Below, piece by piece: positions 33,003-64,000 of a DNA stretch of 64,000 nucleotides (positions are counted from its first letter, which is position 1; every line of letters starts with the position of its first letter). A program made the translations under genes and the position numbers. The stretch is taken from contig PLRJ01000087.1 of the NCBI GenBank assembly GCA_003163855.1, positions 12,479 to 76,478 on the forward strand, given 5' to 3'. Source of the DNA: Bryobacterales bacterium (GTDB taxonomy: Bacteria; Acidobacteriota; Terriglobia; Bryobacterales; Bryobacteraceae). The notes under the pieces were generated by a model that searched no databases, was not told the origin of the DNA, and saw nothing but the letters and a program-made list of their open reading frames with translations.

Positions 33003-33267
33003 TAAACAATCATCCTCAACAACTGTGCTTATGTGGCGACGTTTACCGCAGAACGAACGTCCCCCGAACGGTAGCCAAAATTCCTGGTTGCAGGATCACC
33101 AACTTATCCCGTTATAGAGTAATCCCCAGACGCCAAGAACACCTTAGCCATGACTTCGCTTTTATATTCTTGTACCACGTACAGGTACCTTTCGCACTAT
33201 GTATACGGTTGCGAAAGTACTTTTGGCGCGCCTCCTTGTATACGCGGCGCTTCAATGGTACGAAACG

Positions 33268-43834: not shown

Positions 43835-46800
43835 TTAAGGTTCGACGAATGTCTGGTCGGGCCAGAATGTCTGATTTCCGTAAATGTCGGTACTAACCAA
43901 CTGGTAATGCACGACGCCGCTAGGTACGTGTCCCATCGCCGGCGTGGGATTAGTAGTCAAGCTGGTAGTAGACGACCACTGGTTATAGGCAGTGGTCGGA
44001 CCGAACTGTACATAGCTATAAGTGGGTGTGGAAGTTGTCCATGAAACGAAGGCCGTATTGCCGCTGCCCGGAGTTACTGTAATGGCTGAGATCGACGGTC
44101 CGCTGGCACCTGTGGACGTGGTGAAGGAGTAAGTTGACGAATAGCCGGTGTTGCCGTTGGCATCGGTCGACTGGGCCACGAAATAATAGGTCGTGGAACT
44201 CTTCAAGCCGGTTAAAGTCACTCCGTGATTATTAGTGAGAGTGGTCTGAACGGGTGTCGTTTGGCCCAGGGCAGGACTTAAGCCATAGGACACCGCAGTG
44301 GTTGCAACATTATCAGTGGACCATGAAATGCTAATGCCGGAAGCATTCACACCCCACGAGTTCAGATATAAGAGAACCGGGCCATTGCTGGACGAGGCGG
44401 GAGTTGAGGCGGCGGGAGGGGGAGTGGCGGTGCTACTGCTGGAGCCTCCCGTAGTGAAACTGTAGGTGGCGGAATAGCCCGTATTTCCGTTAGAGTCAGT
44501 AGACTGAGCTACAAAATAGTACGTTGTCCCGCTGGCTAAGCCGTTGAGCACGACTCCGTGGCTTACCGTGAGCCCAGTTTGGACGGGGGTTACCGTCCCT
44601 AACGCAGTGCTAGTACCATACGCTACGGCAGTAGTAGAACCCACATTTGTGGACCAGGAAATCGAGGCACTGTTGCTGGTGATGCCCCACGACAGCAGAT
44701 ACGAAATCTGCGGTGGAGGACCAGTACTCGCGGAGGCACTGGAACCGGTGGTGGTTTGCGTGCTGCTTATAGTGGTAAAAGTATAGACCGTAGAAGTACT
44801 GGAATTGCCGTTTACATCGGTGGCATTGCAAACGAAGTAATAGGTTGTTCCACTTGCCAGGCCGGTTAAGGTAACGCCGTGGGAAACCGTTAAGTAACTT
44901 TGCACAGGCGTTGTTGTACCTAACGATGTCGTAGTGCCGTAGGACAAGGAAGTTGTCGCTGGGGAACTGGTAGACCAGGAAACGGTAATTCCCGACGTGC
45001 TGACGCCCCATGACACTACGTACGAGATGGCTGGTCCGGCGCCAGACGAGGAACCAGTCACCGGCGGAGGGGCTGCTGCCGCGGCCGGTGACGTCGCGAA
45101 GGTGAAGTTGCTGGACGCAGCAGAAGTTCCGGCAGAGTTAGCCGAAACTACCGAAAAGTTATAGGTCGTGCCGGCCGCGAGCCCGGTGAGTGTCACCGAG
45201 TGAGTTGTAGTCAGCGAACTGCTGGCGGCTGAACTTGAACCATAGGCGGTGGTGGTTCCATAGAAAACCTGGGATGAAGATGCCTGATCTGTGGTCCAGG
45301 TAATTGTGGCGGACGATGTGGTCAGGCCGCTCGCAGCCACTGCGGAAATGACCGGCGCCGGCGTAACTACGGGCGCGGCTGCGGTGGTTCCACCCCAAGT
45401 CAAAACAGTCATAGAATAAGGCGGTAAAGATAGGCCGGAAGAGGCATTGAAGCTGTTGAGCGTCGACGCGGTGATATTCACTACGCTTGAGTTTTCGTTG
45501 GTATCTGTTGGGTAAGCAGAGGTCAACTGCTGCATCTGTACGGTTCCGGAAGGAGCATTAGAGCCGCTGAAGGTAACGGGCAGCGCACTGCTGCGGGACA
45601 GATTGAAAACGATGGCCGAACGGCTGCTCCCGTTAGCGAAAGCAAAAGAATGCAGGTAGTGAGCGCCGTTGAATTGAACGGTGTTCACCAACGGCTGATT
45701 CCAGGTGGGATCAGCTCCACTGTGCACGGTCTGCAGCATAGCTGCTCCGTTGCTGAGGGCTTGGTTGGCAAGCTGAAGGGCCAGAAACTGCGGTCTTCTA
45801 AGGTTCGCCGAGCCCATATCAACAACCGCGCCCCAAAGCAAAGCGGTAAGGCCGTCGGAGCGCATGAAGTTGTATTGCGGGAGCGCAAACAGTTCCTGAT
45901 TTACCACACCGAAATTACGCAGACTGAGCAGCATGGTATCGGCAACCATCAAGCCGGCGCCCAAACTTGGCGTGTAAGAGTTCAGCGCCTGCTGGGATAT
46001 AGATCCAGATAGCGTCGCCATATTGATCTCATAAAAGCTCATGGGAACCGGATGTGAGGAAGCTTGTATGGCTTGGTAATCCTGCAGCACTTCGCCTGGA
46101 GTCTCACCTTCGGCGGTGCCGCTACTGGACATGAAGGCTTCCGGTTCTGCGAACGTGGAACCGAACAAGGATTCGTTGTCGGAGTAGCTATCCACCGTGC
46201 CCATAGTGTAGGGCGCTACCGCCAGCGAGTCGTTATTGTTCATAGCATTCAAAATGGCGGTGTTACGCGCGGCGTAGGCCGCCTGGCCGCCAGCGACGAG
46301 GTCAAAATTGCCAGCCACAAAGTTAGGATTCGAGCGAAAGATGCCGAAGATCGTCTGGGCGCGGCTCCCGTAGGGTGCCGCATACTCGATGCTGCCGCCT
46401 TTGAAGCTTCCATTCCACGCTTCGTTACCGAACTCCAAATGAATCTTTGAAAATACTGAGGTCCAAGGCGCGTTCTGCCCGAGGGCGGCTCGTTTGGCGC
46501 CATAAGTCGATGTGGAAGCTCCAGCAAGATATTCGATCAGGTTGTTGGCGTCGGTTGTACTGAAGGTGGAGGGTACGACAAACCAGGGTTCGGCTCCAAT
46601 TGCCTGGCACAGCCCGAGAAAGTCGTGCAAGCCGTAGTCAACCACGTCCGACTCGGTGTACCAGGCGAGATAACCGGACCTCTGCCGCCCGAACTGCGGT
46701 TGAAGGAGGTTATCCAAGGTGTCACCCAGTTGGCCACCCCAATACCGGAGCACCCCAGGATTCAGCGTCCGTAGTGCACTGACTACTGGATCGCGAAAAG

Positions 46801-47812
46801 CCGTCGTGTTCGTCGGATCGCCGTTGGTTTTGACAAGGCTGACGTCATCCAACTCAAAGGAATCGGCACCAACAGTTGCGAAGCTGACATCTGCAATACC
46901 AATGGCGGAGCCGTTTTCGTAAGCCGAAAAATTGATGTTATAGGTGTTCCAACTGTTCGTGAGGTTTACCGGCTGGCTAACGTAAGTGGCTACACCTGTT
47001 CGGCTTATCACCACCTGGATTTGGTTTGACCCGCCAATACCTTTTGCCTTGAACTGCAATTGGTAGGTTCCGTTCAGCTGCAGAAAGGTATGTCCCAAGA
47101 CGGAATCGAAGAAGCCGCCAATGATCGCCGAGTCGCTGGCCGTAGGAGCGGTAAGGGCGATGGTCTGCTTGCCTAACGTTCCGGGAGGTAAGTCTGTGAG
47201 ATTATCGCTTATCTTGCCATTGCCCGACGTCGAAGGCCACCAGCCTCCGCTGGCTCCGCCTGGCACGGTTTTGCGGACGATTAGATAATCGCCTGCCGCC
47301 GGAGCTACACCCGAGTTTGAGAAATAGAAGGTTCCGCCGGAGCCGTTAGCGGCGGCAGTCGAACTGGTTATAGTGCCGGTGCGACCGGCGGAAGTTCCCC
47401 AGAAAACTTCATAAGTGGCGCCGTTCCAGAACCCGGCAGGCCAGGCGGACCACTGATCCTCATCAAGACAGCTGGTGGCCGTGCCGGAAGCGCAGCGTAT
47501 GGTGGAATTCCATATCTGCCCTTCGAAGCCCGGATTAGACATCAGCAGGTTCTGAGTGGTTTGCCCGGAATCGTAGTAATCCAAAGTACCCAGGTTGATG
47601 CCAAGGCGTTTAACCGAAGGCTGGATAGTAGTCGTGCCAATGGCTATATTCGTGCTCTGAGAAAAAATGGTAGTTGGTACGCCAAAAGTAAGAAAAAATA
47701 AAAGTGCATAAGTTCGGGACCGGAGGGATCCCCAATTAGTGGCGCGCTGCAGCGTCATTTCCAAAACATAGACCTCGTTCTTTAATGGCCGTAAGTTACC
47801 CCACGAGGGCAT
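43835..47812 (-). CDS. Large secreted GH-A-like protein with 5 C-terminal FN3-like modules (paralogue 3)
   Basis: 1325 aa; STNIAIGTTTIQPSVKRLGINLGTLDYYDSGQTTQNLLMSNPGFEGQIWNSTIRC; IHLEFGNEAWNGSFKGG; PMSFYEINMATLSG; five FN3-like repeats. Confidence 0.85.
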   Translation of the reverse strand: MPSWGNLRPLKNEVYVLEMTLQRATNWGSLRSRTYALLFFLTFGVPTTIFSQSTNIAIGTTTIQPSVKRLGINLGTLDYYDSGQTTQNLLMSNPGFEGQIWNSTIRCASGTATSCLDEDQWSAWPAGFWNGATYEVFWGTSAGRTGTITSSTAAANGSGGTFYFSNSGVAPAAGDYLIVRKTVPGGASGGWWPSTSGNGKISDNLTDLPPGTLGKQTIALTAPTASDSAIIGGFFDSVLGHTFLQLNGTYQLQFKAKGIGGSNQIQVVISRTGVATYVSQPVNLTNSWNTYNINFSAYENGSAIGIADVSFATVGADSFELDDVSLVKTNGDPTNTTAFRDPVVSALRTLNPGVLRYWGGQLGDTLDNLLQPQFGRQRSGYLAWYTESDVVDYGLHDFLGLCQAIGAEPWFVVPSTFSTTDANNLIEYLAGASTSTYGAKRAALGQNAPWTSVFSKIHLEFGNEAWNGSFKGGSIEYAAPYGSRAQTIFGIFRSNPNFVAGNFDLVAGGQAAYAARNTAILNAMNNNDSLAVAPYTMGTVDSYSDNESLFGSTFAEPEAFMSSSGTAEGETPGEVLQDYQAIQASSHPVPMSFYEINMATLSGSISQQALNSYTPSLGAGLMVADTMLLSLRNFGVVNQELFALPQYNFMRSDGLTALLWGAVVDMGSANLRRPQFLALQLANQALSNGAAMLQTVHSGADPTWNQPLVNTVQFNGAHYLHSFAFANGSSRSAIVFNLSRSSALPVTFSGSNAPSGTVQMQQLTSAYPTDTNENSSVVNITASTLNSFNASSGLSLPPYSMTVLTWGGTTAAAPVVTPAPVISAVAASGLTTSSATITWTTDQASSSQVFYGTTTAYGSSSAASSSLTTTHSVTLTGLAAGTTYNFSVVSANSAGTSAASSNFTFATSPAAAAAPPPVTGSSSGAGPAISYVVSWGVSTSGITVSWSTSSPATTSLSYGTTTSLGTTTPVQSYLTVSHGVTLTGLASGTTYYFVCNATDVNGNSSTSTVYTFTTISSTQTTTGSSASASTGPPPQISYLLSWGITSNSASISWSTNVGSTTAVAYGTSTALGTVTPVQTGLTVSHGVVLNGLASGTTYYFVAQSTDSNGNTGYSATYSFTTGGSSSSTATPPPAASTPASSSNGPVLLYLNSWGVNASGISISWSTDNVATTAVSYGLSPALGQTTPVQTTLTNNHGVTLTGLKSSTTYYFVAQSTDANGNTGYSSTYSFTTSTGASGPSISAITVTPGSGNTAFVSWTTSTPTYSYVQFGPTTAYNQWSSTTSLTTNPTPAMGHVPSGVVHYQLVSTDIYGNQTFWPDQTFVEP

Positions 47813-47985: not shown

Positions 47986-49371
47986 TCAATGCAAGTTGAG
48001 GGGCTGAGACCAAGGAAAACCAGCGAGATTGCGTAGGAAGAACAGGCCAGCGGTACCGGCGACAAAAAGCAGGGTCATTTCCAGGTCCTGGCGGAGAGTT
48101 AAGAGGTTTTCTCGCCACAAACCGAACAAATTACAAAGGTATACCGGGAAATCGCTAAACGAGATGATCCAGACGGCTCCGATCAGGCCCCAGATATGGA
48201 AGGTGGAAGGCACAACCAATAACAAAACCGAGGCAGTCAGGATATACCCAACTACGTTGTAGCTTAATTTCCCCAACATAGTCAGGCAGGGCGCACTGGT
48301 GCTGTAGAGAATGGTGTGCCACAAACCAAGCGCCAAAATAGGTACCATCCAGGCAGCGTTGTGGTACCGCTTATCGTACACATGGAGCAAAAACAGGTCG
48401 GAAAAATTCACTCCGATCGCCAAGAGAACCGCTCCGGCCAGCAGCACCATGCGGCGATATTTTATGACTACGGCACGGAACTCGCCACGCTCCAGGCGAC
48501 TGAAACCGGATACAAACGGCAACCCAACGTATCCGCGGAACGCCATAATCACCTGACGCGGGATATCGGCCAGGGCGAAAGCTATGCCGTACAAACCTAA
48601 CGTTGTCATGGAAACCAATTTGCCTAGAACCAGGCGGTCCGATTGCGAAGCCAGGAAGGTTAGCGCGGTGGAGGCGAATATCCACTTACCGAACGCGAGC
48701 AATTCGTGGACGATCTCTTTATTCCAGGCAAAGCGGTTGCGGTAGTTGGGGATCAGCATGTGGCTGACGACCAGGCGCGCGGTGTCGGAAACCAGGCGGC
48801 CGATGACCAGCGCCCAAACGGTAGGGCTGATCAGCGCGGCCACTACCGTGACAATCAACTGCACTACCTGCACGAACAACTCAAGCAGCGCCACCTTGCG
48901 CACTTCCATGTGCTTGTTGAACGTCAGAATACTGGTGGAAGCAAAGCCGGTGATAACCAGGCTTAAGCCCAGAACCGGAGTGAGCGTCAGAAGTTGCGGG
49001 AGCTTATAAAAATGCGAAAAGGGCCAAGTCAGAATGACGCAGATCAGCCACAGTCCAACGCCGCGCAACACCTGCACCGTCCAAACCGTGTTCAGATAAT
49101 GGGGATCGTCACCCTTTTCGCTGCGAATGACGCTAGGGGCTAGGCCGACGTCGGAGAACAGCGTGAGACCGATCATCAGCGTGTTCAGCAGCGCCATGAG
49201 CCCGAAATACTGGGGCAGGAACAGGCGACTGAGCACGACGCTGCTGCCGAGGCGCACAATTTGGCCTCCGGCGTAGGCAACTATGGTCCAAATAGCCCCG
49301 CGGCCCGCCTTCTTGACAAGCGAAGAATGGTTTACTTCGGCTGGGGTATCACTGGTATCGGTAACGGGCAT
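47986..49371 (-). CDS. Polysaccharide flippase (Wzx/MOP superfamily)
   Basis: 461 aa; many TM helices; GRGAIWTIVAYAGGQIVRLGSSVVLSRLFLPQYFGLMALLNTLMIGLTLFSDVGLAPSVI. Confidence 0.88.
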   Translation of the reverse strand: MPVTDTSDTPAEVNHSSLVKKAGRGAIWTIVAYAGGQIVRLGSSVVLSRLFLPQYFGLMALLNTLMIGLTLFSDVGLAPSVIRSEKGDDPHYLNTVWTVQVLRGVGLWLICVILTWPFSHFYKLPQLLTLTPVLGLSLVITGFASTSILTFNKHMEVRKVALLELFVQVVQLIVTVVAALISPTVWALVIGRLVSDTARLVVSHMLIPNYRNRFAWNKEIVHELLAFGKWIFASTALTFLASQSDRLVLGKLVSMTTLGLYGIAFALADIPRQVIMAFRGYVGLPFVSGFSRLERGEFRAVVIKYRRMVLLAGAVLLAIGVNFSDLFLLHVYDKRYHNAAWMVPILALGLWHTILYSTSAPCLTMLGKLSYNVVGYILTASVLLLVVPSTFHIWGLIGAVWIISFSDFPVYLCNLFGLWRENLLTLRQDLEMTLLFVAGTAGLFFLRNLAGFPWSQPLNLH

Positions 49372-50179: not shown

Positions 50180-51187
50180 TTACGCGCTTTTCTTATATTC
50201 GATAAGCTCGCTGCGCCAATTCCTTCTGGCATTCTTCCAATAGCGCAGCTGTCCCATAAAAACCGGGATTTGCTGGAAGTGCGAATGAATGGCAAACAGC
50301 AGGAGGGTCGCAGGCGAAGCGGGCTTACTTCGGGCCTTGTAGGCGGTCCGCACAATGATGGCTATAGCGCAACCCCCAAGCGCGAATAAAACCAGCCACG
50401 AGTGCAGAAGCAGCGCCGCCAGTAGAGCCACGGCAGGCAGTGTCATATACGCCGAAGCCTGCACAACATTGGTGCGCGACGCTGACTGCCAGAGCGGATC
50501 GCCCGAATTCTTGTGGCGTGCCGCAATCTCTGCATAGGCATGACCAGCCCGGAAGGAGTGGCGCCAATACTGCCGGAAACTGACCATGGCAAAGTCATGA
50601 CCGGTCATCGGCACGTCAATATGGGGAATCAATCCGCCATGGGCGCGGATGCGATGACAAAGGTCGGGCTCTTCGCCCGCGACGAGGTCAGGATTGAAGC
50701 CACCGGCCTGCTCCAGCGCCGAGCGGCGCATAACGGCATCGCCGCCGCAGAATTCGGTTAGGCCCGGAGGATAAACCCAGTTCAAATCAAGCACGCGATT
50801 GAACAGAGAGGCTTCGGGATGAAGTTCGCGGCGATGACCCCAGACGACGGCAACCTGCGGATTTTCAAACTCGGCCAGGGCTTTGGTGACGAAGTCGGGA
50901 TGAAGCACGGTGTCGCCATCCAGAAACAGGATGAACGGCGCCACAGCAGCCTGCCAGCCGGCGTTGCGGGCGCGCGCCGCCGACATGCGGCCGCTGGTGA
51001 TTTCAATCACCTTGGCTCCAAATTCGGCTGCCTTTGCGGCTGAGCCGTCACTCGAAGCCGAGTCTACATAGATGATTTCGAACAGGCCAAACGGGTGCGC
51101 CATGGCACTGACCGATTCCAGACATCGAACCAGCCGCGCGCCTTCGTTACGGCCTATGACGACAACAGATAGAGCTGGATCCTGCAT
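50180..51187 (-). CDS. GT2-family glycosyltransferase
   Basis: 335 aa; LSVVVIGRNEGARLVRCLESV...IIYVDSASSDGSAAKAAEFGAKVIE...ARNAGWQAAVAPFILFLDGDTVLHPDF. Confidence 0.9.
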   Translation of the reverse strand: MQDPALSVVVIGRNEGARLVRCLESVSAMAHPFGLFEIIYVDSASSDGSAAKAAEFGAKVIEITSGRMSAARARNAGWQAAVAPFILFLDGDTVLHPDFVTKALAEFENPQVAVVWGHRRELHPEASLFNRVLDLNWVYPPGLTEFCGGDAVMRRSALEQAGGFNPDLVAGEEPDLCHRIRAHGGLIPHIDVPMTGHDFAMVSFRQYWRHSFRAGHAYAEIAARHKNSGDPLWQSASRTNVVQASAYMTLPAVALLAALLLHSWLVLFALGGCAIAIIVRTAYKARSKPASPATLLLFAIHSHFQQIPVFMGQLRYWKNARRNWRSELIEYKKSA

Positions 51188-51189
51188 GG

Positions 51190-52221
51190 CTACCAGGGGC
51201 GCGGCGGAGACATGCGGCCGCCGTTGGTTTCCTTCCAGGCTTGCTTCATCAGTTGGCTGACTGTCTGGCTTTCAGCCGCCTTGTCCTGGCGCTCCTGACT
51301 GCTGCTCAGGCTGTTGCGCCAACGCCGCGCCAGATGCCACCAGCGTTCCATCAAATAAGCGAGAAAGGCGAAGTTTCCATGATGCTTGCGATAGTAGAGC
51401 AGGGCGCTCCGCATTCTCCACAGCGTTAGCTGTGAGCCTGAACGCGACATTACCGCTGAGGCGATCGTTTTGGAAGATTCTCCGCCTAGATGGACGATAA
51501 CAACGTCGGGCCAATAGACGACCTTCAAACCCAAAGCCTTGATGCGGCGGCACAGGTCCACTTCTTCGTAGTACAGGAAGAAATCTTCATCGAAGATGCC
51601 GGCGTTTTCCAGCGCCTTCGGACGGATGATGGAGAAGGCGCCGGGCACCCAATCTACTTCGGCGGTTTCCATCGGATCGCTCCAGGTGCGGTCGGCGCGT
51701 CCGAAGAAGCGCGAACGGGGAAACTTACTCGACAAGCCTGAAAGCGTCAGAAAATCATTTAATAACGATGGGAAGCAACGTGCGGAGGGCTGCCAGGTTT
51801 CTGTGGGACCGATGAGCCGGCCGCCACCTAAGCCCACGTCCGGGTTCTTCTCCATGTGGTCGATGGCGCGGCGCAGCGCATCAGGCCGCAGGAAGGCATC
51901 GGAGTTCAAAAGAATAATGTAGCGGCCGCTAGCCTCGAGCAGCGCACGATTGTTGGCGGCGCCGAATCCTAGGTTCACTTCACTGCGGATCACCTGAATA
52001 TCGGGATACTCTGCCTCCAGCATCTCGACGGAACCGTCTTTGGAGGCATTATCGACGACGATGATTTCAAGTTTTAAGCCTTCGGCCGATTCCTTCAAAT
52101 GCTGGAAGCAGCGGTGCAGAATCTCGCGCGTGTTGTACGAGACGATCACCACCGACAGATCGCACTGTTCCTTTTTCTTGACGAGCTTCAATTCCGAAGC
52201 CCGAGACGTCAAAGACGGCAC
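51190..52221 (-). CDS. GT2-family glycosyltransferase (rhamnosyltransferase WbbL-like)
   Basis: 343 aa; LSVVIVSYNTREILHRCFQHL...IIVVDNASKDGSVEML...NLGFGAANNRALLEASGRYIILLNSDAFL...DEDFFLYYEEVDLCRRIKALG. Confidence 0.92.
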   Translation of the reverse strand: MPSLTSRASELKLVKKKEQCDLSVVIVSYNTREILHRCFQHLKESAEGLKLEIIVVDNASKDGSVEMLEAEYPDIQVIRSEVNLGFGAANNRALLEASGRYIILLNSDAFLRPDALRRAIDHMEKNPDVGLGGGRLIGPTETWQPSARCFPSLLNDFLTLSGLSSKFPRSRFFGRADRTWSDPMETAEVDWVPGAFSIIRPKALENAGIFDEDFFLYYEEVDLCRRIKALGLKVVYWPDVVIVHLGGESSKTIASAVMSRSGSQLTLWRMRSALLYYRKHHGNFAFLAYLMERWWHLARRWRNSLSSSQERQDKAAESQTVSQLMKQAWKETNGGRMSPPRPW

Positions 52222-53468
52222 TGAAAAATGTCCCCCAATCCCTTGACACTTTGCTCTAGAACGTAGCTCTCCTGGACCCGCATGCGGCCCGAGAAACCGA
52301 GCCGGTGGCGCAGTTCGGGGTCGTCAATCAAGCGCGCCAGCGCGCCGGCGAGTTGTACTTCGTCGGAAGGCGCCACCAGTAGCCCGTCGACATCGTTGCG
52401 AATTAGTTCCGGGATGCCCGCTATGGTGGTACTCACGCACGGAATCTCCATCGCCATTGCTTCCATCAGCGCGATCGGAATTCCTTCGGCAAAGCTGGGT
52501 AAAGCGAAAATATCGGCCTGTTCCAAAGCCTGTCGTACACGGCCGATACCTACTGCTCCTTCAAAAACGACTTTGTTTGTTATTCCGAGACGAGCCGCGG
52601 CCGCTTCCAGGCTTTCGCGGTCGGGTCCTTTGCCGATGAGGCGCAACCTCACATCACGGCCTTCGCTGACAAGGCGTTCAAAGGCCGCCAACAGAATGTG
52701 CTGGCCCTTCGCCGCCACCAGCCGTCCTACAGAAATGATTTCAACGGGACCCGGGTGAACCGAGCGCCGAGCCGGAGCAAACTTTTTGGGATCGACGCCC
52801 AGGCGCGACAGCACCAGCTTGTGCCACATCGAAGACGGGCAAAGCATCATCAATTGGCTGATGCCGTAGGAGCTGATGCATATAACCAGGCTGGCTGTTT
52901 CCAGCTTTTCACGCAGATAAAATTTGCTGACATCCCAGAATTCATCCGGCCCATGCAGCGTCAGCGAGAGAGTTATCGGAAAAGTGCGGGCGACAATCAT
53001 CGCCACGTTCGCCACCGCGCCGCCAAAGTGAGTATGCAGGTGCTTGCGTCCATGTTTCCGCATCCACATGCCCACAATCAGCGCCTCGAGGAAATAGAAA
53101 ATCCGGATGACGCCGCCGCCCAGCCGCAGCGTGAAATACAAGCCGCGCAAAACGCCTAACGGATTCAGGACCATGGCGGAGAAAATGGCCTTAAGCCAGG
53201 CAAAAAGGCCCGCACCCTTGACATAAAAGGTATTGGCCTGCTCAGCACGCTCCACCGGCTCCATTTCGGCTTGCGGTTGATCGCAGGCATTGATGGACGC
53301 GGTGACGATGTCAAAGCCAAGCTTTTTCAGTCCGACGATTTCATTGAGGACGAAGGTCAGCGAGTAAGCTGGATAGCCGCTCAGCAGATAGGCGATCTTA
53401 GTGCGCGCCGGTGCGGCGTGGCTCGAGACCGGTTCCGATGCCGCGGCTACTTCGGCGACTGAACTCAT
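52209..53468 (-). CDS. GT4-family glycosyltransferase
   Basis: 419 aa; VEIISVGRLVAAKGQHILLAAFERL...LRLIGKGPDRESLEAAAARLGI...ADIFALPSFAEGIPIALMEAMAMEIPCVSTTIAGIPELI. Confidence 0.92.
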   Translation of the reverse strand: MSSVAEVAAASEPVSSHAAPARTKIAYLLSGYPAYSLTFVLNEIVGLKKLGFDIVTASINACDQPQAEMEPVERAEQANTFYVKGAGLFAWLKAIFSAMVLNPLGVLRGLYFTLRLGGGVIRIFYFLEALIVGMWMRKHGRKHLHTHFGGAVANVAMIVARTFPITLSLTLHGPDEFWDVSKFYLREKLETASLVICISSYGISQLMMLCPSSMWHKLVLSRLGVDPKKFAPARRSVHPGPVEIISVGRLVAAKGQHILLAAFERLVSEGRDVRLRLIGKGPDRESLEAAAARLGITNKVVFEGAVGIGRVRQALEQADIFALPSFAEGIPIALMEAMAMEIPCVSTTIAGIPELIRNDVDGLLVAPSDEVQLAGALARLIDDPELRHRLGFSGRMRVQESYVLEQSVKGLGDIFQCRL

Positions 53469-53526: not shown

Positions 53527-55560
53527 CTACCACCCCACCCAGGTTCCGGAAAGACCAGCCAGCTGGCGCTGCATCGCCATGTATTCTTTCAAGTCGCGGC
53601 GCAGCGAACGCCCGGCGCGTTCCACGCGTACATCCTGCAGAATGACGCCGATAGCAGGAACATTCAACCGTTCCAGCAGACGCGCGCCGCGCAGCAGGTC
53701 GGGCCGCGTGTTCATACCCGCCTGCACGACAACCAGGGTCATGTCGGCTTCGGCCGCCAGACGTTCGGTTTCGGCCGAGAAGACCAGCGCTGGAGCATCC
53801 ATCAAAACGACCGAACAGTCTTCCAGGTCCTCGGCGAGGGAAACGCCCGGGCCGATCAACCTGGTTTGGCCATTGGCCTGGCGAAACTCCGAATCAAGCC
53901 GCCGGCGTCCCGGGCGAACCGTAACATTGATCTTGTGGTCGCCAAGCTGACGTGCGATGTCGCGCATTAATGAGGGCGGCACCGGCTGTTTCAGCCCGGT
54001 CAAGAGGACCGTTCTGGCACCTTCGGCAATGCCCCGTTCAATGCCCGCGATCAGCCGCCGCAAATGTTCATCGGCAAAGGCCTCAATTTTTGGAGTACGG
54101 GAAATGGTCATGCCCACCACCGGGAATCCAAGAATTCTTTCGATGCTGGCAGGGTCATAGATACGGGAATCGAGCAGGTCGAGCGCTACAGGAAGCGCCA
54201 GTCCGAAGAATAAGGCGGCGGCAAATACAGTCGCCAACGCTTTCATCCGCTGGCTCTTGAGCGGCCACTCGGGCGGCTGAGCGCTCGAAAACACACGCAT
54301 GGCCCCGCCTGTGGAGTTGCGCAGACTGATGTCTTCAAGCTGGCTCTCAACGCGCGTCAAATGCTCCTGAATTCTGGCAATGTCGGCATTCACAATTTCC
54401 GCCTGACCAAGATTTCTAGTCATGTTCGGAATGTTGGCTGTAGCCGCATTAATCTCCTCAGTCAAATCGTTTTCCACCCGGCGCGCCTCTTCCACCTGGG
54501 CCTTGTATTTTGCCAGCAGCTGTTGAGAAACTTTGGGAACTCGATCGCCGCCCGGTCCGCGCTGCAGTTCGGCATCGATAGAAGCCAGTTCCGCTTCGGC
54601 CTGTTTACGGTACGGGTGCGACGGAGTCATCGATTTAATGCGTTCCCGCAGTTCAAACTGCCGCTGCAGCAAAGTAGACGTGACAGAAGTGGTGGCGGGA
54701 TTTGAGCTGGCAATCTGCTCGGCATCGGAAGCCAGAGTGGACTGTCCCTCTTGCAGGTGTTCTTCTGCCTGCACACGGGCGGCGTGCGCCGCCGACAGGG
54801 ACCGGCGCAACTGCACCAGAACTTCGTCGTCTGGAAGGATGGTGTTCTGGTGAAGGTTGACTACCTGCAAAGACTCAGACAGGCGCGCGCGCAACTCCAA
54901 TTGCTGCTGCAACTCTTTCTGCAAAGCGGCCTTTTGAATGTATAAGACAGAGCCGCGATCGGAACGTCCCGAAGCGTCGGGCCGCGTTCCCGCTTCCAGA
55001 AAGCTGGCCGCGACGGTATTCACAATAGCCGCCGCCATGCGCGGATCGGCATTGGTGATTTGAATGCTAACTTCGTAGCTGTCCGGTACGCGCTGAACTT
55101 CCAGCGTCTTACGCAGGCGGTCCACAGCGTTTCGTTCGTTCTCGCCTGCAAAACGCCACGGAGTGCCCTTGTTAGCCAGTTGGTGGATGGCGTCGCTCAG
55201 CGTGTCGTAATGCAGAATCGACATGATCTGCTGGTTGACAAAAGTCGGATACGGTTGCGCCGCCACGCCATCGCCGGCGTCATCCCTTGCCATATCAGGC
55301 GGAACGTAGATGGTCGTCTCGGCCTGATAGACGGGCCGTATTGTTTTATAGGCCCACAGCGTCCCGATACCTACGATCAGCAGGAAGACAAACACGGACA
55401 AACGCCAGTGCCGCTCCAGGCTGTCCATTAAGTCCAGTTCCATTCCGTGTGTGGGAGCGGCTGGGGGTGGCGGCGGCTGATTTCGATAAACCGCTGCCGA
55501 AGAGTGGAGAACCAGGGCTTTATCGCTGTCAGGCGCTGGTGATTTGCGAAGCATTGACAT
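53527..55560 (-). CDS. Wzz/GumC-type polysaccharide co-polymerase with C-terminal BY-kinase-like domain lacking a recognisable Walker A
   Basis: 677 aa; Wzz N-terminus (RHWRLSVFVFLLIVGIGTLWAYKTIRPVYQAETTIYVPP), long coiled coil, FPVVGMTI linker, then degenerate NTPase-like region TVLLTGLKQPVPPSLMRDIARQ...CSVVLMDAPALVFSAETERLAAEADMTLVVVQAG. Confidence 0.88.
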   Translation of the reverse strand: MSMLRKSPAPDSDKALVLHSSAAVYRNQPPPPPAAPTHGMELDLMDSLERHWRLSVFVFLLIVGIGTLWAYKTIRPVYQAETTIYVPPDMARDDAGDGVAAQPYPTFVNQQIMSILHYDTLSDAIHQLANKGTPWRFAGENERNAVDRLRKTLEVQRVPDSYEVSIQITNADPRMAAAIVNTVAASFLEAGTRPDASGRSDRGSVLYIQKAALQKELQQQLELRARLSESLQVVNLHQNTILPDDEVLVQLRRSLSAAHAARVQAEEHLQEGQSTLASDAEQIASSNPATTSVTSTLLQRQFELRERIKSMTPSHPYRKQAEAELASIDAELQRGPGGDRVPKVSQQLLAKYKAQVEEARRVENDLTEEINAATANIPNMTRNLGQAEIVNADIARIQEHLTRVESQLEDISLRNSTGGAMRVFSSAQPPEWPLKSQRMKALATVFAAALFFGLALPVALDLLDSRIYDPASIERILGFPVVGMTISRTPKIEAFADEHLRRLIAGIERGIAEGARTVLLTGLKQPVPPSLMRDIARQLGDHKINVTVRPGRRRLDSEFRQANGQTRLIGPGVSLAEDLEDCSVVLMDAPALVFSAETERLAAEADMTLVVVQAGMNTRPDLLRGARLLERLNVPAIGVILQDVRVERAGRSLRRDLKEYMAMQRQLAGLSGTWVGW

Positions 55561-55566
55561 ACGCGC

Positions 55567-56649
55567 TTACTTTCCCCCCGCGATGGCGCCGAACATCAGA
55601 AGCGATCCCGCAGGGCTGAATTTGTTCAGAACATACCCAAACTTGCCTAAACCGCTCTTGGGCACATAAATTACGTCGCCACGCTGCAGCGACACTTCGA
55701 TGGTTTGCGACTTCCCGGGCGCCAACATATCTTTCAAAGAAACTTCACGGGTCTGGCCGGTAGAGGGCCGCACAATGCGAATTTTGTCGGTGGCCGCATC
55801 TTCATTTAAGCCCGCCATCGCCAGCACGTCCACCAGCCGGGTGTCCGAGGTTAGCCGAAACGCACCAGGATGCAGCACCTGGCCTAACACCGAAACCAGC
55901 GCCTCCTGTTCATCCGGCACGAAGACAACATCATCCCGCCGCAGATGCAGATCCACCCCCGAACCGCTGGCAAACAGATCCTGCATATCGACCCAGAGCA
56001 CCTGTTCGGTGCCGCGGTAAATAGCGCAGCGGCTGATCATAGCCGCCGGCGAACCGGTCTTCGTCACCGGGTTGATGGTTCCGTCCGCCGGGCGTGGGCT
56101 GTAAGCTCCGCTCTTGGCCAGCGCTTCCAGCAAAGTAGGAGCGGTATCGAAATAAAGGGGGCCGGGCGACGATACGCGGCCTACCACCACGATCCGGTTA
56201 GAAGAGTATTTGGTTACCTGCACCGTGACGCTGACATTGGAGTAGAATTGCGTCCAGGCCTTGGCCATAGCTGCGGCAGCGGCTTCGCGCGTCATCCCGC
56301 TCACCTTCATCGGCCCCGCCAGCGGCAGCGTGATTCTTCCGTCCGGTCCCACCACGTGATGCCCCTGCAGATCGCTCTGGGTGGGCACCTGAATGTCGAT
56401 CTCGTCGCCTGCCCCGATGGTGTATTCCTGCACCGACGCAGCTTCAAACTCGCGCAACAGTTCCGCCTGGCTCAGCTTGAGGCCCGACGTGCCGGTCACC
56501 GGATTCACCGGGCGATCGTTGACGTCGCCGGCATGATCCGTCTCCGAGGCAAGACAAACCGCACCTCCCCCCAGCAGCGTTGCAGCCACGAAAACGGCAC
56601 CGCATACGTGCATTCTGGTTAAGAAACGGTCGAACATTCTTCCCTCCAC
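55567..56649 (-). CDS. Polysaccharide export outer-membrane protein (Wza/GumB-like, SLBB)
   Basis: 360 aa; YTIGAGDEIDIQVPTQSDLQGHHVVGPDGRITLPLAGPMKVSGMTREAAAAAMAKAW; VSVLGQVLHPGAFRLTSDTRLVDVLAMAGL; VSLQRGDVIYVPKSG. Confidence 0.92.
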   Translation of the reverse strand: MEGRMFDRFLTRMHVCGAVFVAATLLGGGAVCLASETDHAGDVNDRPVNPVTGTSGLKLSQAELLREFEAASVQEYTIGAGDEIDIQVPTQSDLQGHHVVGPDGRITLPLAGPMKVSGMTREAAAAAMAKAWTQFYSNVSVTVQVTKYSSNRIVVVGRVSSPGPLYFDTAPTLLEALAKSGAYSPRPADGTINPVTKTGSPAAMISRCAIYRGTEQVLWVDMQDLFASGSGVDLHLRRDDVVFVPDEQEALVSVLGQVLHPGAFRLTSDTRLVDVLAMAGLNEDAATDKIRIVRPSTGQTREVSLKDMLAPGKSQTIEVSLQRGDVIYVPKSGLGKFGYVLNKFSPAGSLLMFGAIAGGK

Positions 56650-57158
56650 TGATCTAACTTTTTACGAGGCCGCACAACGGCGGGAATGCCCACCGCGATC
56701 GAACCTTCCGGAACATCGGTTAACACCACGGCATTAGCTCCGATGCTGGAATCGTCTCCAATTCGGATCTCGCCCAAAATCTTTGCGCCGGCGCCAATAT
56801 CCACTCGATTACCAATCACCGGCGAGCCGCGCTTGCCGGTACGGCGCAGGCCAATCGTGACGCCGTTTCGTAACACCACGTCGTCGCCTAAGCGCGCATC
56901 GCCGCTAACCACCACACCTTGTGGATGGTCAATCCGGACGCGCCGTCCCAGTTGCGCCTCGCAGGGCACTTCCGCTCCGGTCGCCATCAGCACAAAGGCA
57001 AACGCCAGCTTGTAGGCAAAGGAAAACGGCACTCGCACCAGCCGCCAGGGAATCGTGTAACGCCAGCAGCCGAAACGGTAGACCACCATCACCCACATGC
57101 CAGGGCACAGGGGATCGCGGCCGTAGGTCTGCCAGTCTTCGCGCAGATTGTCAAACAT
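56619..57158 (-). CDS. Serine-acetyltransferase-like hexapeptide transferase
   Basis: Start MFDNLREDWQTYGRDPLCPGMWVMVVYRFG overlaps stop of the upstream GT2 gene; VRIDHPQGVVVSGDARLGDDVVLRNGVTIGL...VIGNRVDIGAGAKILGEIRIGDDSSIGANAVVLTDVPEGSIAVGIPA. Confidence 0.88.
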   Translation of the reverse strand: MFDNLREDWQTYGRDPLCPGMWVMVVYRFGCWRYTIPWRLVRVPFSFAYKLAFAFVLMATGAEVPCEAQLGRRVRIDHPQGVVVSGDARLGDDVVLRNGVTIGLRRTGKRGSPVIGNRVDIGAGAKILGEIRIGDDSSIGANAVVLTDVPEGSIAVGIPAVVRPRKKLDQWREECSTVS

Positions 57159-58467
57159 TGTTGACCTCCGGCTGAGGCTCGGGCTGCACCTCTGGTTTTC
57201 CATCGCCGGCACGGGGCGTGCGCGTCCACTGCGCACCTTTGCGTGACGACTTAACAATGGCGGCCATACGCGTCAGTTTCCAAAAGACATAGGCGGGCGC
57301 CGACACTAATGCCATGGCGCTCGCGCGGACATTTCCGCTCAATCCTACTGCCGTCGCCACATGCGCCAGCAACATGGCCAGCAAAAAAATTCCGTAGTAG
57401 CGAAATGCGGCCACGGGAAACGCACAAAGCGCAAGCGAAATCAGCGCCAGATAGGCCAGCGGCATCGTCAACAGTTCGAACAGCGGCTCGGCTACCAGGA
57501 ACTTGCCGCGCAGCACTTGCGCTGCAAGCTTGGGAATCCACATGCCCGCTACCCGCGCCCGGCCACCTTCCCAGCGCGCACGCTGTGTCAGTTGCGCGGC
57601 TTCATCGTTCGGTATATCCCCGTAGACAGTGGCGGCGTTGGCAAAACGAACGGTTTTGCCCGCATCCACCAACAGCAAATGATATTCCAGATCTTCCACA
57701 ATTGAATCCGCCGAGTAAGGAACCGCCTGCAAAGTGGCGCGGCTGAGTGCAAAACCATTGCCAAGAATGCCGGCCGACAAACCCCAACCATCGCGTCCCT
57801 TAGGCCTTAGCACGTTGATGGCCAGAAAGGCTACATCCATCAGGCGCTTGCGCTCGGAATCAAGCGGCGGCATGACGCGATAGCGCGCCTGCATGGCGTC
57901 GGCTCCGGCCAGTAGCCCCCGGGCGATCTCCGGCACCAGGTTGGGCGAAACGACTGAATCGGCATCGACGATCAAAAACCCGTCGTAGCCTTCGGCGATT
58001 AACAGATCCAGGGCAAATCGCAACGCATAGCCCTTGCCGCGCAGTTGGGCGTTTTCACGGACCAGAACACGCGCGCCCGCCTGACGTGCCTTTTCGGCGG
58101 TCGCATCGGTACAGTTGTCGGCCACTACCGCCACAGTACAGCGCGGACCGCCCTTGGCTGAAGCGAACAAACTGGCAACACAACGTGCTATCAACACTTC
58201 TTCGTTATGCGCCGGGATAATGACGGCAAGCGAAAAGTTCTCGATTCCAGCGGCCGAGGGCAACGCACGCCGGAGCAAAGCACCGCCGGTGACGAGCATC
58301 AACTCGAGGGCTCCTGGCAGCGTCGCCAGGGTAGCAGCGGCCCCTACCGGGAGCAGAATTTCTCGCAGAAGATCCATCACGCGATTACCCTCCGGAACGC
58401 AAACGCAGGGGCGGCAACCACCACAGGCGAGCGCCGGGACCGGTACACCAGGCAGGCATCGCTCCAA
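57151..58467 (-). CDS. GT2-family glycosyltransferase, membrane-associated (cellulose-synthase-like fold)
   Basis: 438 aa ORF; likely start around VMDLLREILLPVG (overlap region with next gene); LAVIIPAHNEEVLIARCVASL...VADNCTDATAEKARQAGARVLVRENAQLRGKGYALRFAL...DADSVVSPNL...QRARWEGGR. Confidence 0.9.
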   Translation of the reverse strand: MERCLPGVPVPALACGGCRPCVCVPEGNRVMDLLREILLPVGAAATLATLPGALELMLVTGGALLRRALPSAAGIENFSLAVIIPAHNEEVLIARCVASLFASAKGGPRCTVAVVADNCTDATAEKARQAGARVLVRENAQLRGKGYALRFALDLLIAEGYDGFLIVDADSVVSPNLVPEIARGLLAGADAMQARYRVMPPLDSERKRLMDVAFLAINVLRPKGRDGWGLSAGILGNGFALSRATLQAVPYSADSIVEDLEYHLLLVDAGKTVRFANAATVYGDIPNDEAAQLTQRARWEGGRARVAGMWIPKLAAQVLRGKFLVAEPLFELLTMPLAYLALISLALCAFPVAAFRYYGIFLLAMLLAHVATAVGLSGNVRASAMALVSAPAYVFWKLTRMAAIVKSSRKGAQWTRTPRAGDGKPEVQPEPQPEVNNV

Positions 58468-59738
58468 CCAAGGAAGAGAAACAAAGCGGGGAACACCTGA
58501 CCACCCAGAAAAACCGTCCCTACGGCGACAGCAATGGAAATCACAATACCGGCGAGGGTGAAAAGCATACCGCGCTGATCGAGCGTGAGGGTGTTATCCA
58601 CAAGGCCGACCCAGAGCAGGTGCACCACCGCAGCCAGCAACATAAGTACAAACAAGACCAGCCCCGTTATGCCGTACATCAGCATTAAGAGGAGATACCA
58701 GTTGTCGATGGAACCCATGCCGGGCACGCGCGGCCAATAGGTGGATCCCCAACCCCAGAAGCGCTGCTGCGCGGCAATGTCGGAGTATTCGGCCACCAGT
58801 CTGGTGCGATATTCTGCCGATGCCAACTCTTCCTGACTCTCCTTGTCAGCTTGTGAGGTGTTTACATAAGACTTCCCGCCCAGATAAACTAGGCCCCCGC
58901 CAATTACCAGAACAATCACGGCCAAGCGCGCCGCGCGCCAGCGATTCTGCGCGGTTCCTACCAAAGCGATAATCAAGCCCACCATGGTCGCCAGCCAAGG
59001 GCCGCGCGAGATCGTCATGATACTTCCCGCGATCAGCCCTACCAGCATGGCCTTTGCTTTATCGATACGCAGAGTCGGGAACCAGCTGAAGCGCCTCTCC
59101 CATAGTCCAAAGCGCATCGCATACCGATGCAGAATAATGGCAATCGCCAGCATCGCGCCCATAAAAATGGCGTGTCCGAAAGGACCCGCAACGCGGCCCA
59201 ACCCATAGCGAAACTGGGTGAACCAGGGGTCGTAGGAGGAGAAAAAACGGCCGAAAACCATGCGGAACGGGTTCACTCCTAGGCGAAATTCATAGGCGGA
59301 GAGGATGGAGTCTACAAACAGGCAGAAGACAAAGCGGCGAATGATGGCCACCCGCATCCCGGTTTGCTCTATCAACAGCTTGCCCGCCATGTAAGGCAGC
59401 AATCCGATCATAATCGGCTTTAAAATACGGTAAACGATATCGGTCAATCCACCTGCGTGAATATCGGAGATGATGGTCCAGGCAATAAACAAAATCACTC
59501 CGGCATCAGTTAGCGACCAGCGCCAGCGGCCGTTCAAACACCACCAGCACAGCGCTGCGCCGATGGGTAAAAGCGCATACTCATTAAAGTTGAGCGGCGG
59601 CCATCCAAACAGATAAGCGTCGGGCAGCAGCAGCAAAATAGGCAAGTAGACCCGATAGAGGGCCGCCTCCACTGATGCATAGTAAATTACCGCTACGGAA
59701 GCCACCGCCGGCAAAGCTATGATGGGATCTATCGTCAT
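58377..59738 (-). CDS. O-antigen polymerase/ligase-like (Wzy) membrane protein
   Basis: 453 aa, many TM helices; GSIMTISRGPWLATMVGLIIALVGTAQNRW and FWGWGSTYWPRVPGMGSIDNWYLLLMLMYGITGL. Confidence 0.85.
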   Translation of the reverse strand: MTIDPIIALPAVASVAVIYYASVEAALYRVYLPILLLLPDAYLFGWPPLNFNEYALLPIGAALCWWCLNGRWRWSLTDAGVILFIAWTIISDIHAGGLTDIVYRILKPIMIGLLPYMAGKLLIEQTGMRVAIIRRFVFCLFVDSILSAYEFRLGVNPFRMVFGRFFSSYDPWFTQFRYGLGRVAGPFGHAIFMGAMLAIAIILHRYAMRFGLWERRFSWFPTLRIDKAKAMLVGLIAGSIMTISRGPWLATMVGLIIALVGTAQNRWRAARLAVIVLVIGGGLVYLGGKSYVNTSQADKESQEELASAEYRTRLVAEYSDIAAQQRFWGWGSTYWPRVPGMGSIDNWYLLLMLMYGITGLVLFVLMLLAAVVHLLWVGLVDNTLTLDQRGMLFTLAGIVISIAVAVGTVFLGGQVFPALFLFLGWSDACLVYRSRRSPVVVAAPAFAFRRVIA

Positions 59739-59954: not shown

Positions 59955-61274
59955 TTATGCCGCCCCGGCTACCTGAGGCTCGGAATCAACGACGGCTTGG
60001 CGGCGTAGAATCTGCCCGACTGCATCCCTAACTGTATCGGCGGATTGGAGCAGACCTTCAAAATGCGCAGCGCGCAACTGGCGCTTGAGCGAGCGCGAGA
60101 CGCCGGCTAGCCAGACTTCCGACTTGTTTTGACTCGCATGACGCAGCATGGCAGCCAGCGTCCAGAGTCCATCAGCGCCCAGGTGGGAAGTGGCGGTTAA
60201 ATCGAGCACCACCGACTGTCCGGAAGCGACTGCGGCAGTCATTGCGTGCGACAGTTCCGCCAGTCCGCTGCCCGTCATGGCTCCCGCTGCTGCTATGACG
60301 TTTATGCCGTTCATTGCATTCTCGCTAACTTGTAGCGGCGCAACCGGACGCCGAAAGAGGCCCTGCACGAACAATTGCACGATCAGGTAACGAATCATCC
60401 AGAGCGCGTCGGCAGAGTAGCGCGGGACCAACCGAACGGGATCCACACACATGCGGAAGATCCATTCCAAGCCCGTTTTCTGCATCCAGGCAGGGGCGCG
60501 TTTCACCGTGCCGGCCATAAAGTCCAGCGTGCCGCCAATGCCGATGCAAACCGGAACATTAAGCCGGTGACGGTTGCGGCTGATCCACTTCTCCTGCTTA
60601 GGACTGCCGAAGGCGACCAGCAGAATATCGGGTCGGGCTTCTTCGATGGCCGAAAGGATAGGCTCGTTGTCAAAGTCCTTCAGCGGGCGAACCGGTGGAG
60701 ACATGCGTCCCACTACGCGCACGCCCGGGCTCATGGTCTTCATCTGACGTTCAGCCTTTTCGGCCACCTCAGGAGTAGCTCCCAGAAGAAAAATCGTGTA
60801 GCCTTTGCGCCCCGACAGGCGGACCAGTTCAGGCACCATATCGGCGCCGGTGACTCGTTCGCGCAGCGGAATACCAAACAGGCGCGACGTCCAAACAATC
60901 GGCATCCCGTCGGCTACCACCAGATCGCACATGCAGAGAATGTGGCGGTATTCTGAATCCTTGGTTGCATGCACCAGATAATCGACGTTGGCGGTTGCCA
61001 CCTGGTGCATCCCGCCTTCTTCGATCATCTTTTCGATGACCTGGAGCGCTTCCTGCATCAGCACGTCGTCGACGGCGACGCCTGACAACCCTAAGCCATT
61101 ACGGCTCTTCTCAAAACGCTCGTCCCGTTCTTCCGCGTTGTCTTCCATTTGACTGGCCTTATTTGTAAGGGAAGAGATCCCGAAATTCATGCTGCTCATA
61201 TGTACCCGCTTTAACCTCCGGCTGCCCCTACGACTGTAAATTGTGATATCTACGCCCCACTCGTTACAAACCAA
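59955..61274 (-). CDS. WecG/TagA/CpsF glycosyltransferase fused to C-terminal STAS-like domain
   Basis: 439 aa ORF; GT26 motifs VADGMPIVWTSRLFGIPLRERVTGADMVPEL, LLVAFGSPKQEKWISRNRHRL, GIGGTLDFMAGTVKRAPAWMQKTGLEWIFRMCVDPVRLVPRY; then VVLDLTATSHLGADGLWTLAAMLRHASQNKSEVWLAGVSRSLKRQLRAAHFEGLL. Confidence 0.9.
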   Translation of the reverse strand: MVCNEWGVDITIYSRRGSRRLKRVHMSSMNFGISSLTNKASQMEDNAEERDERFEKSRNGLGLSGVAVDDVLMQEALQVIEKMIEEGGMHQVATANVDYLVHATKDSEYRHILCMCDLVVADGMPIVWTSRLFGIPLRERVTGADMVPELVRLSGRKGYTIFLLGATPEVAEKAERQMKTMSPGVRVVGRMSPPVRPLKDFDNEPILSAIEEARPDILLVAFGSPKQEKWISRNRHRLNVPVCIGIGGTLDFMAGTVKRAPAWMQKTGLEWIFRMCVDPVRLVPRYSADALWMIRYLIVQLFVQGLFRRPVAPLQVSENAMNGINVIAAAGAMTGSGLAELSHAMTAAVASGQSVVLDLTATSHLGADGLWTLAAMLRHASQNKSEVWLAGVSRSLKRQLRAAHFEGLLQSADTVRDAVGQILRRQAVVDSEPQVAGAA

Positions 61275-61918: not shown

Positions 61919-63142
61919 TTGGCGTCTCGGGCTCTTTGGCGGAGGCCTGGAGGCCCAGTCGCAGTGAATTCGCTGATTACACTTCGAAAAAACCTTGCGT
62001 TGAAAACTATGCCGGGCCTGAACGGGGCGCGTGCTATTGCCGCACTTCTAGTCGTTTTCCATCACTGGACGCCTTTGCTGCATTCCAGAAATCCCTTTGT
62101 CGACCTCTCTCCTGGACCGTATGCAGTTATTTTCTTTTTTGTTTTAAGCGGATTCTTAATTACGACGCTGCTGCTGCGCGAACAGGAGCAAGCGGGTTCC
62201 ATTGACATTCGCGCGTTTTGGGTTCGCCGGCTACTGCGCATACTCCCCGCCTTCTATATCTGTTTAACTCTGCAAGCCGTTCTTATCAAAAGCCTGCCCG
62301 CCGATATCATCGCCTCTTTCGCCTATGTCAACAACTACTATCAGGCCATGCGCGGCTGGGGCTATTCGGTTGTGGAGCATAGCTGGAGTCTTTCGGTCGA
62401 GGAGCAGTTTTACTTCCTGTGGCCGATAGCCTTCCTAGTCTTCGCCAGAAATCGCAAAGCTCTTAAGCTTTATCTCGTGATCGGTATTGTAGCGGTTGAA
62501 GGAGCGCGCTTTGTGGGAAATCATTTCGGCATTCCCCTTCTCTACCGCTATTTTGCCTTCGAATTTCGGTGCGATGCATTGATGATCGGTTGTTACATGG
62601 CGATTAAGCTGAAAGAGCTCGCCGAGCCTCCGCAATGGTTGCTGAGTCCGGCGCTTGGTGCGGGCCTGGTTGTCCTTTTCCCAGCGCTGATGTTTCCCTT
62701 TAAGAATCGGCTGCTGGTCGATAAATTGATTGCTCCCTTTGGCTACAGCATCGGAGCTTATGCCTCGGCTGTGCTGATCATCCAGATAGTTGCCTATGCA
62801 CCGGTCTTCTTGACCAACCCGGTGATGAACTACCTGGGCTCATTGTCGTACTCGATTTACCTCTATCACGTGATGCTTCTTGACTTGACCAGCCACCTTA
62901 TGGGGCATATGAATACGGTTGCGGTCCTTGCATTCTATGTCTGTGGAACGGTAGCGGCGGCAAGCCTGTCTCACCATTTAATCGAAAAGCCGTTTATGAA
63001 GCTCAGGTCTCGAGCGCCGTCGCCACCGAAACCAAGTTCGTTGGACCGGCTGGCGGCGGCGCTGGGCAGTCCTTCGCGCTCACCCATTGGCGCGGCCCAG
63101 CGCGAATTCGCGCGCGACATTTCTGTGGAGATTACAAAGTAA
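61919..63142 (+). CDS. Acyltransferase 3 family membrane protein
   Basis: 407 aa ORF; LNGARAIAALLVVFHHWTPLL...FFFVLSGFLITTLLLREQEQAGSIDIRAFWVRRLLRILPAFYICL...EHSWSLSVEEQFYFLWP. Start may be downstream (MPGLNGARA). Confidence 0.9.
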   Translation: MASRALWRRPGGPVAVNSLITLRKNLALKTMPGLNGARAIAALLVVFHHWTPLLHSRNPFVDLSPGPYAVIFFFVLSGFLITTLLLREQEQAGSIDIRAFWVRRLLRILPAFYICLTLQAVLIKSLPADIIASFAYVNNYYQAMRGWGYSVVEHSWSLSVEEQFYFLWPIAFLVFARNRKALKLYLVIGIVAVEGARFVGNHFGIPLLYRYFAFEFRCDALMIGCYMAIKLKELAEPPQWLLSPALGAGLVVLFPALMFPFKNRLLVDKLIAPFGYSIGAYASAVLIIQIVAYAPVFLTNPVMNYLGSLSYSIYLYHVMLLDLTSHLMGHMNTVAVLAFYVCGTVAAASLSHHLIEKPFMKLRSRAPSPPKPSSLDRLAAALGSPSRSPIGAAQREFARDISVEITK

Positions 63143-63605: not shown

Positions 63606-64000
63606 GTGGCAGACATTTCTGGAGGCGTTAGCAGTTTGATTAGCGACATAGTCCAAATTCTTAATCGGCGAAAGTGGCAGATTCTTGTTACGTTCTTCTC
63701 TATTGTCGGGATCGTCGTAGCCGTAACTTTTCTGCTGCCAAAGAAATACGAGACGCGCATGAAGATCCTGGTTAAGAGTGAGCGCACTGCTGGCAATGGA
63801 TACGGCAGCGGCGGCGACGTCAGTGAGAACCAGGTCAACACTGAGATGGAAATGCTGACCAGCAACAATCTGCTGGAGCAAGTGGTGAAATGGAGCGGCC
63901 TTCAGCATAACGAGGACGTAAGTTCCCTTCCCGCCGCTGAACAGCAGCCAGTGGCCATAGAAAAGGCAGTCCGCAGGCTTGAACACGATCTGAAGATCGC
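63606..64000 (+). CDS. Wzz/GumC-type chain-length determinant protein, truncated by window edge
   Basis: Manual reading, absent from ORF track: (GTG 63606) VADISGGVSSLISDIVQILNRRKWQILVTFFSIVGIVVAVTFLLPKKYETRMKILVKSERTAGNGYGSGGDVSENQVNTEMEMLTSNNLLEQVVKWSGL. TTG 63636 with GGAGG at 63621 is an alternative start. Confidence 0.8.
   Translation, partial: MADISGGVSSLISDIVQILNRRKWQILVTFFSIVGIVVAVTFLLPKKYETRMKILVKSERTAGNGYGSGGDVSENQVNTEMEMLTSNNLLEQVVKWSGLQHNEDVSSLPAAEQQPVAIEKAVRRLEHDLKI

Follow-up and report, generated by a model that had tools for sequence, protein, structure and literature searches.

The minus strand of the window (the whole 64,000-nt stretch analysed here, positions 12,479–76,478 of the forward strand of contig PLRJ01000087.1, GCA_003163855.1, from Bryobacterales bacterium, a soil acidobacterium) displays a single open frame at 59955–61274, 439 codons counted from a TTG, in which a GT26 glycosyltransferase is followed by a STAS domain (Table 1). 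A preliminary description of this DNA had given the frame these limits; it is indeed uninterrupted, while its start at 61274 is the upstream TTG. Translation more likely begins at the ATG at 61199–61197, since a GGAGG is located 15 nt 5' of this codon and residues 1–32 of the resulting 414-aa form are disordered in the AlphaFold2 (AF2) model. The same description had proposed that GT26 and STAS are fused in one gene, which Pfam, AF2 and Foldseek bear out, and had raised the possibility of two genes joined by a sequencing error. Such a join, or a frameshift, was ruled out because codon-position GC is even over the GT26/STAS junction and full-length homologs span both domains.

Table 1. Features of the GT26-STAS gene and of the genes that follow it, in positions of the window.
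Feature	Position	Strand	Basis or remark
GT26-STAS fusion gene	59955..61199	(-)	likely start ATG, 414 aa
GT26 (WecG/TagA/CpsF) catalytic domain	60417..60926	(-)	Pfam and alignment to 7mpk
Long helix after GT, residues 254-280 of 414 (27 residues)	60360..60440	(-)	AF2
STAS domain, residues 290-406 of 414	59982..60332	(-)	Pfam, AF2, Foldseek
G-A-D-G in place of the D-S-[SA]-G of SpoIIAA/TM1442	60168..60179	(-)	alignment to TM1442
Wzy-type polymerase / O-antigen ligase (Wzy_C)	58377..59738	(-)	Pfam
Membrane GT2 glycosyltransferase	57151..58467	(-)	syntenic in homologs; start probably downstream, overlaps wzy
Hexapeptide acyltransferase	56619..57257	(-)	domain match
Wza-type export protein (Poly_export and SLBB)	55567..56649	(-)	domain match and synteny
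Wzz-type chain-length protein	53527..55560	(-)	weak Pfam match under cut-off; backed by synteny
GT4 and two GT2 glycosyltransferases	50180..53468	(-)	domain matches
Wzx-type flippase (Polysacc_synt)	47986..49371	(-)	domain match

Glyco_tran_WecG (PF03808) is matched at residues 117–286 of the open frame (E 7e-62, 208.6 bits against a curated cut-off of 27.4). The AF2 model (10-row alignment, mean pLDDT 82.9, pTM 0.80) consists of a TagA-like glycosyltransferase, the long helix and a STAS fold, and Foldseek matched it to TagA/TarA at a TMt of 0.94. By alignment to 7mpk, T69, D97, R249 and R256 (414-aa numbering) occupy the positions of TagA Thr37, Asp65, Arg214 and Arg221; the equivalents of the catalytic Thr37, Asp65 and Arg221, which were probed by mutation in TagA (PMC6493773), are thus all present and, together with the Pfam match and the fold, uphold the earlier view of a complete GT26 enzyme. 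The helix contains an R-L-x-x-R-Y motif conserved in the alignment of fusions and corresponds to the C-terminal appendage of TagA, which is required for activity and membrane binding in an enzyme proposed to cycle between a dimeric, inactive form and a monomer that is active at the membrane (PMC6493773). Since the STAS domain directly follows this appendage region, it would be well placed to influence a TagA-type dimer/monomer switch.

The C-terminal part had been read as STAS/SpoIIAA-like, with structure prediction suggested as a check, and both the domain and the fold were recovered. STAS (PF01740) is assigned to residues 323–418 of the open frame (E 5e-9, 36.3 bits against a curated cut-off of 22.6), while the cut-off of the anti-sigma factor antagonist family TIGR00377 was not reached (26.9 bits against 53.45). 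A structure model of the STAS segment alone was weak (pLDDT 65) and was set aside. In a stretch distinct from the glycosyltransferase, Foldseek matched TM1442, an anti-sigma antagonist, RsbV and SpoIIAA, with TMt values of 0.73–0.92 overall (0.86 for TM1442, up to 0.92 for RsbV), and RsbV/SpoIIAA complexes were among the matches. The absence of a phosphorylatable serine, also noticed earlier, stands, and alignment to TM1442 defines the exact replacement as that of D-S-A-G by G-A-D-G: both site residues, D and S, are altered, the phosphoacceptor Ser having become Ala, followed by Asp, so that the window copy lacks the phosphorylatable Ser (or Thr) in D-S-S-G that marks the SpoIIAA/RsbV class. 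Among 29 aligned fusions, the column of SpoIIAA Ser58 holds Pro in 14, Ala in 13, Thr in two and Ser in none, and the next column holds Asp in 17 and Glu in seven; by comparison, six of eight other STAS domains from the same genome retain the serine. As judged from these alignments, loss of the site is a trait of the whole fused family, beyond the window copy alone. Most fusions retain the G, the acidic residue after the lost serine and the W-L strand; counted in invariant columns, the STAS part is less conserved than the glycosyltransferase part.

The GT26-STAS gene is the first of a conserved Wzx/Wzy exopolysaccharide (EPS) locus, with genes for Wzy, GT2, hexapeptide transferase, Wza, Wzz, GT4, GT2, GT2, hexapeptide transferase and Wzx following 3' on the same strand. 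The clustering of Wzx, Wzy, Wza, Wzz and glycosyltransferases, and homolog loci that repeat the order fusion, (Wzy), GT2, Wza, Wzz, confirm the proposed link to EPS. Upstream of the fusion, the scanned loci of a sister family of the same class (f2) carry NusG-like, Xre, sigma-54 activator or phosphopantetheinyl transferase genes, and in several Acidobacteriaceae EPS loci (L089, L085, L090) a NusG-like antiterminator gene lies immediately 5' of the fusion. Genes for a REC-GGDEF diguanylate cyclase and for EAL proteins near two fusion loci (L097:8601-9653, L081:2414-4024) hint at c-di-GMP control. For the ECF sigma/anti-sigma network that the preliminary description had wanted checked as a partner, the neighbourhood gave no support: no RsbW-type serine kinase, PP2C phosphatase or sigma gene was found among the neighbours scanned, which are part of all neighbours; the three strongest HATPase_c_2 matches of the genome sit on other contigs, two of them adjoining standalone STAS genes (contigs C79 and C193). 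Elsewhere in the window, a second GT26 gene beside a Bac_transf initiating sugar transferase (30755–33095) belongs to another polysaccharide locus, two very large proteins with repeated fn3/purple-acid-phosphatase N-terminal domains (36263–40336 and 43835–47812) are located next to the EPS locus, and on the plus strand an acyltransferase 3 gene (61919–63142) and the first part of a further Wzz gene (63606–63998) seem to open yet another polysaccharide locus.

Within its own genome, the window gene is the only one of five GT26 genes to carry a STAS domain, and no GT26-STAS fusion was found in 60 other genomes of its family. The resulting picture of a singleton was overturned by wider scans: a phylum sample yielded four fusions, all from f2, in which a profile of the STAS part then counted 28 fusion loci, spread over about 25 of the 299 genomes sampled. 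The search for further fusions that had been recommended at the outset was thus productive. A contig scan with a subgroup alignment as query returned eight named Acidobacteria loci with the fusion, whereas the single window protein as query gave no match; the named carriers include Silvibacterium MAGs, Acidobacteriaceae bacterium ZG23-2 and Paracidobacterium acidisoli. None of 282 GT26-bearing plasmid records covers 80% of the fusion query, and no report of a GT26-STAS fusion was found in the open-access literature. Two genomes (G622 and G540; loci L077 and L078) hold two GT26-STAS paralogs each, ~20 kb apart, the second with a more divergent STAS (SYASPEGLG).

In the GT26 tree the fusions form one clade (96/97). 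When the closest unfused protein, from genome G493, was added, it fell inside the fusion clade (100/97), and secondary loss of its STAS domain is therefore the most likely explanation by tree position. The fusions also form one group in the STAS tree (92/76), and the simplest reading of both trees would be one fusion event, vertical co-inheritance and one loss. Within the clade, the window copy has a long branch and belongs to another family than the f2 carriers, so that it may have been acquired by transfer, or the MAG (contamination 5.7%) may be mis-binned, although the contig that carries the fusion is 268 kb long.

We examined about 11 related EPS loci with an unfused GT26, from genomes G041, G058, G096, G489, G034, G015, G522, G231, G537, G493 and G527 (the last on a short contig). 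A standalone STAS gene lies near EPS genes in the first four. In G041 (VDSSG) it is found about 30 bp before wzy, beside Bac_transf and Bac_transf-GT26 genes; in G058 (VDTRG) a Bac_transf gene and a Bac_transf-GT26 gene come right after it; in G096 (IDSSG) and G489 (IDSTG) it abuts and directly precedes the GT4 gene of the locus. The D-S-[ST]-G site is intact in three of these four (G041, G096 and G489). No STAS gene was seen in the fetched stretches of the G034, G015, G522, G231 and G537 loci. Given some 10 STAS genes per genome, our rough estimate of the chance expectation in stretches of this size is below one, against four observed; by gene content, STAS thus recurs in this EPS system, either as a separate protein that is mostly phosphorylatable or as a fused domain that is not. 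That the fused domain descends from the standalone STAS of EPS loci is plausible but weakly resolved on the STAS tree (84/65, with open forks). The GT26 domains of G041 and G058 are themselves fused N-terminally to a partial Bac_transf (L164:10271-11665 and L171:11772-13145), another fusion of consecutive steps.

We propose, with a probability of about 0.5 for the reading as a whole, that the fusion protein is a cytoplasmic, membrane-peripheral GT26 enzyme that would add an early sugar onto the undecaprenyl-PP-linked repeat unit of an exopolysaccharide made by the Wzx/Wzy route, and that its C-terminal STAS domain derives from a regulator of the same EPS system, still a separate gene in sister loci. 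Tethered right behind the membrane-binding helix and without a phosphoacceptor serine, the domain would serve for docking or allosteric control in a state that is never phosphorylated: it would keep the enzyme together with further membrane components of the EPS machinery or, alternatively, shift a balance between inactive dimer and active monomer of the kind proposed for TagA. A scaffolding role for the EPS machinery had been suggested from the start, and the standalone STAS genes in sister loci strengthen it, as scaffolding or as regulation. Counting against this proposal, STAS is dispensable in the G493 lineage, where the locus was kept and the domain lost; the five related EPS loci in which no STAS gene was seen and the weak resolution of the descent on the STAS tree also speak against it.

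Alternatively, STAS could chiefly serve dimerisation or stability without regulating the enzyme, and have been kept by descent after one fusion. The single origin and single loss fit this possibility, as does the lower sequence conservation of STAS relative to the glycosyltransferase; we nevertheless consider it clearly less probable than a docking or allosteric module, since related EPS loci carry STAS as a separate gene and most fusions keep the STAS fold with its G, acidic residue and W-L strand. Nucleotide sensing had also been suggested at the outset, but a domain that detects a nucleotide or nucleotide sugar and thereby gates the glycosyltransferase is doubtful: SpoIIAA binds GTP and nucleotide binding has been proposed for some STAS domains (PMC8256260, PMC7367683), but Ser58Ala lowers the weak NTPase activity of SpoIIAA (PMC8256260), and Ala is the state of the window copy. 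Least probable by our estimate is an unphosphorylated decoy in RsbW-like partner switching, linking the level of the EPS enzyme to a sigma network. The Foldseek matches to RsbV/SpoIIAA complexes and the HATPase_c_2 genes of the genome would suit a decoy, yet two of these three kinases already own STAS neighbours, kinase, phosphatase and sigma genes were not seen among the scanned neighbours of the fusion, and both site residues have changed.

STAS regulators of polysaccharide, such as SypA, and the joining of STAS to a different glycosyltransferase (all4160, as far as its citation in PMC8256260 goes) were already known; the standalone STAS genes in four related EPS loci that lack the fusion are new. 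The recurring fusion and the separate genes hint at the step of slime production on which such regulators act, which matters for how STAS regulators set polysaccharide output below transcription. One tentative generalisation, which we hold to be possible rather than likely, is that STAS proteins of polysaccharide loci act on the lipid-linked glycosyltransferase complex (GT26/initiating sugar transferase) below transcription, and that here one has been welded to its target, fixed active and unphosphorylatable, a direction of regulation that we infer. If so, the fusion would expose the target class of regulators such as SypA, with the GT26 step and its Wzy/Bac_transf neighbours as the candidate target, and relatives with a separate phosphorylatable STAS or a fused unphosphorylatable one would be matched pairs.

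Among known systems, TagA/TarA of Thermoanaerobacter italicus (PDB 7mpk, 5wb4) shares with the fusion the glycosyltransferase fold, the four aligned residues and the C-terminal membrane appendage region, whereas only the fusion has a STAS domain after the appendage; the setting is wall teichoic acid for the former and Wzx/Wzy EPS for the latter. TM1442, RsbV and SpoIIAA have the same STAS fold, while the fused domain lacks D-S-S-G and is joined to an enzyme, with no kinase gene among the neighbours scanned. SypA of Vibrio fischeri is likewise a STAS protein encoded within a polysaccharide locus; it is active unphosphorylated, and its S56A variant overcomes SypE inhibition (PMC10120452), though its target is not known (PMC4517449, PMC8256260). 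SypA is standalone and phosphorylated by SypE, in contrast to the serine-less, glycosyltransferase-bound domain described here. MlaB, which stabilises and controls the membrane-associated MlaFEDB complex (PMC7367683), resembles the proposed role of the fused STAS in acting on a membrane-associated enzyme, not a sigma factor; unlike the fused domain, it is a protein of its own that retains Thr52 and binds an ABC ATPase. Finally, all4160 of Anabaena, according to the citation in PMC8256260, also joins STAS to a glycosyltransferase and is needed for the heterocyst envelope polysaccharide, with its STAS domain at the N terminus, as opposed to the C-terminal position in GT26-STAS.
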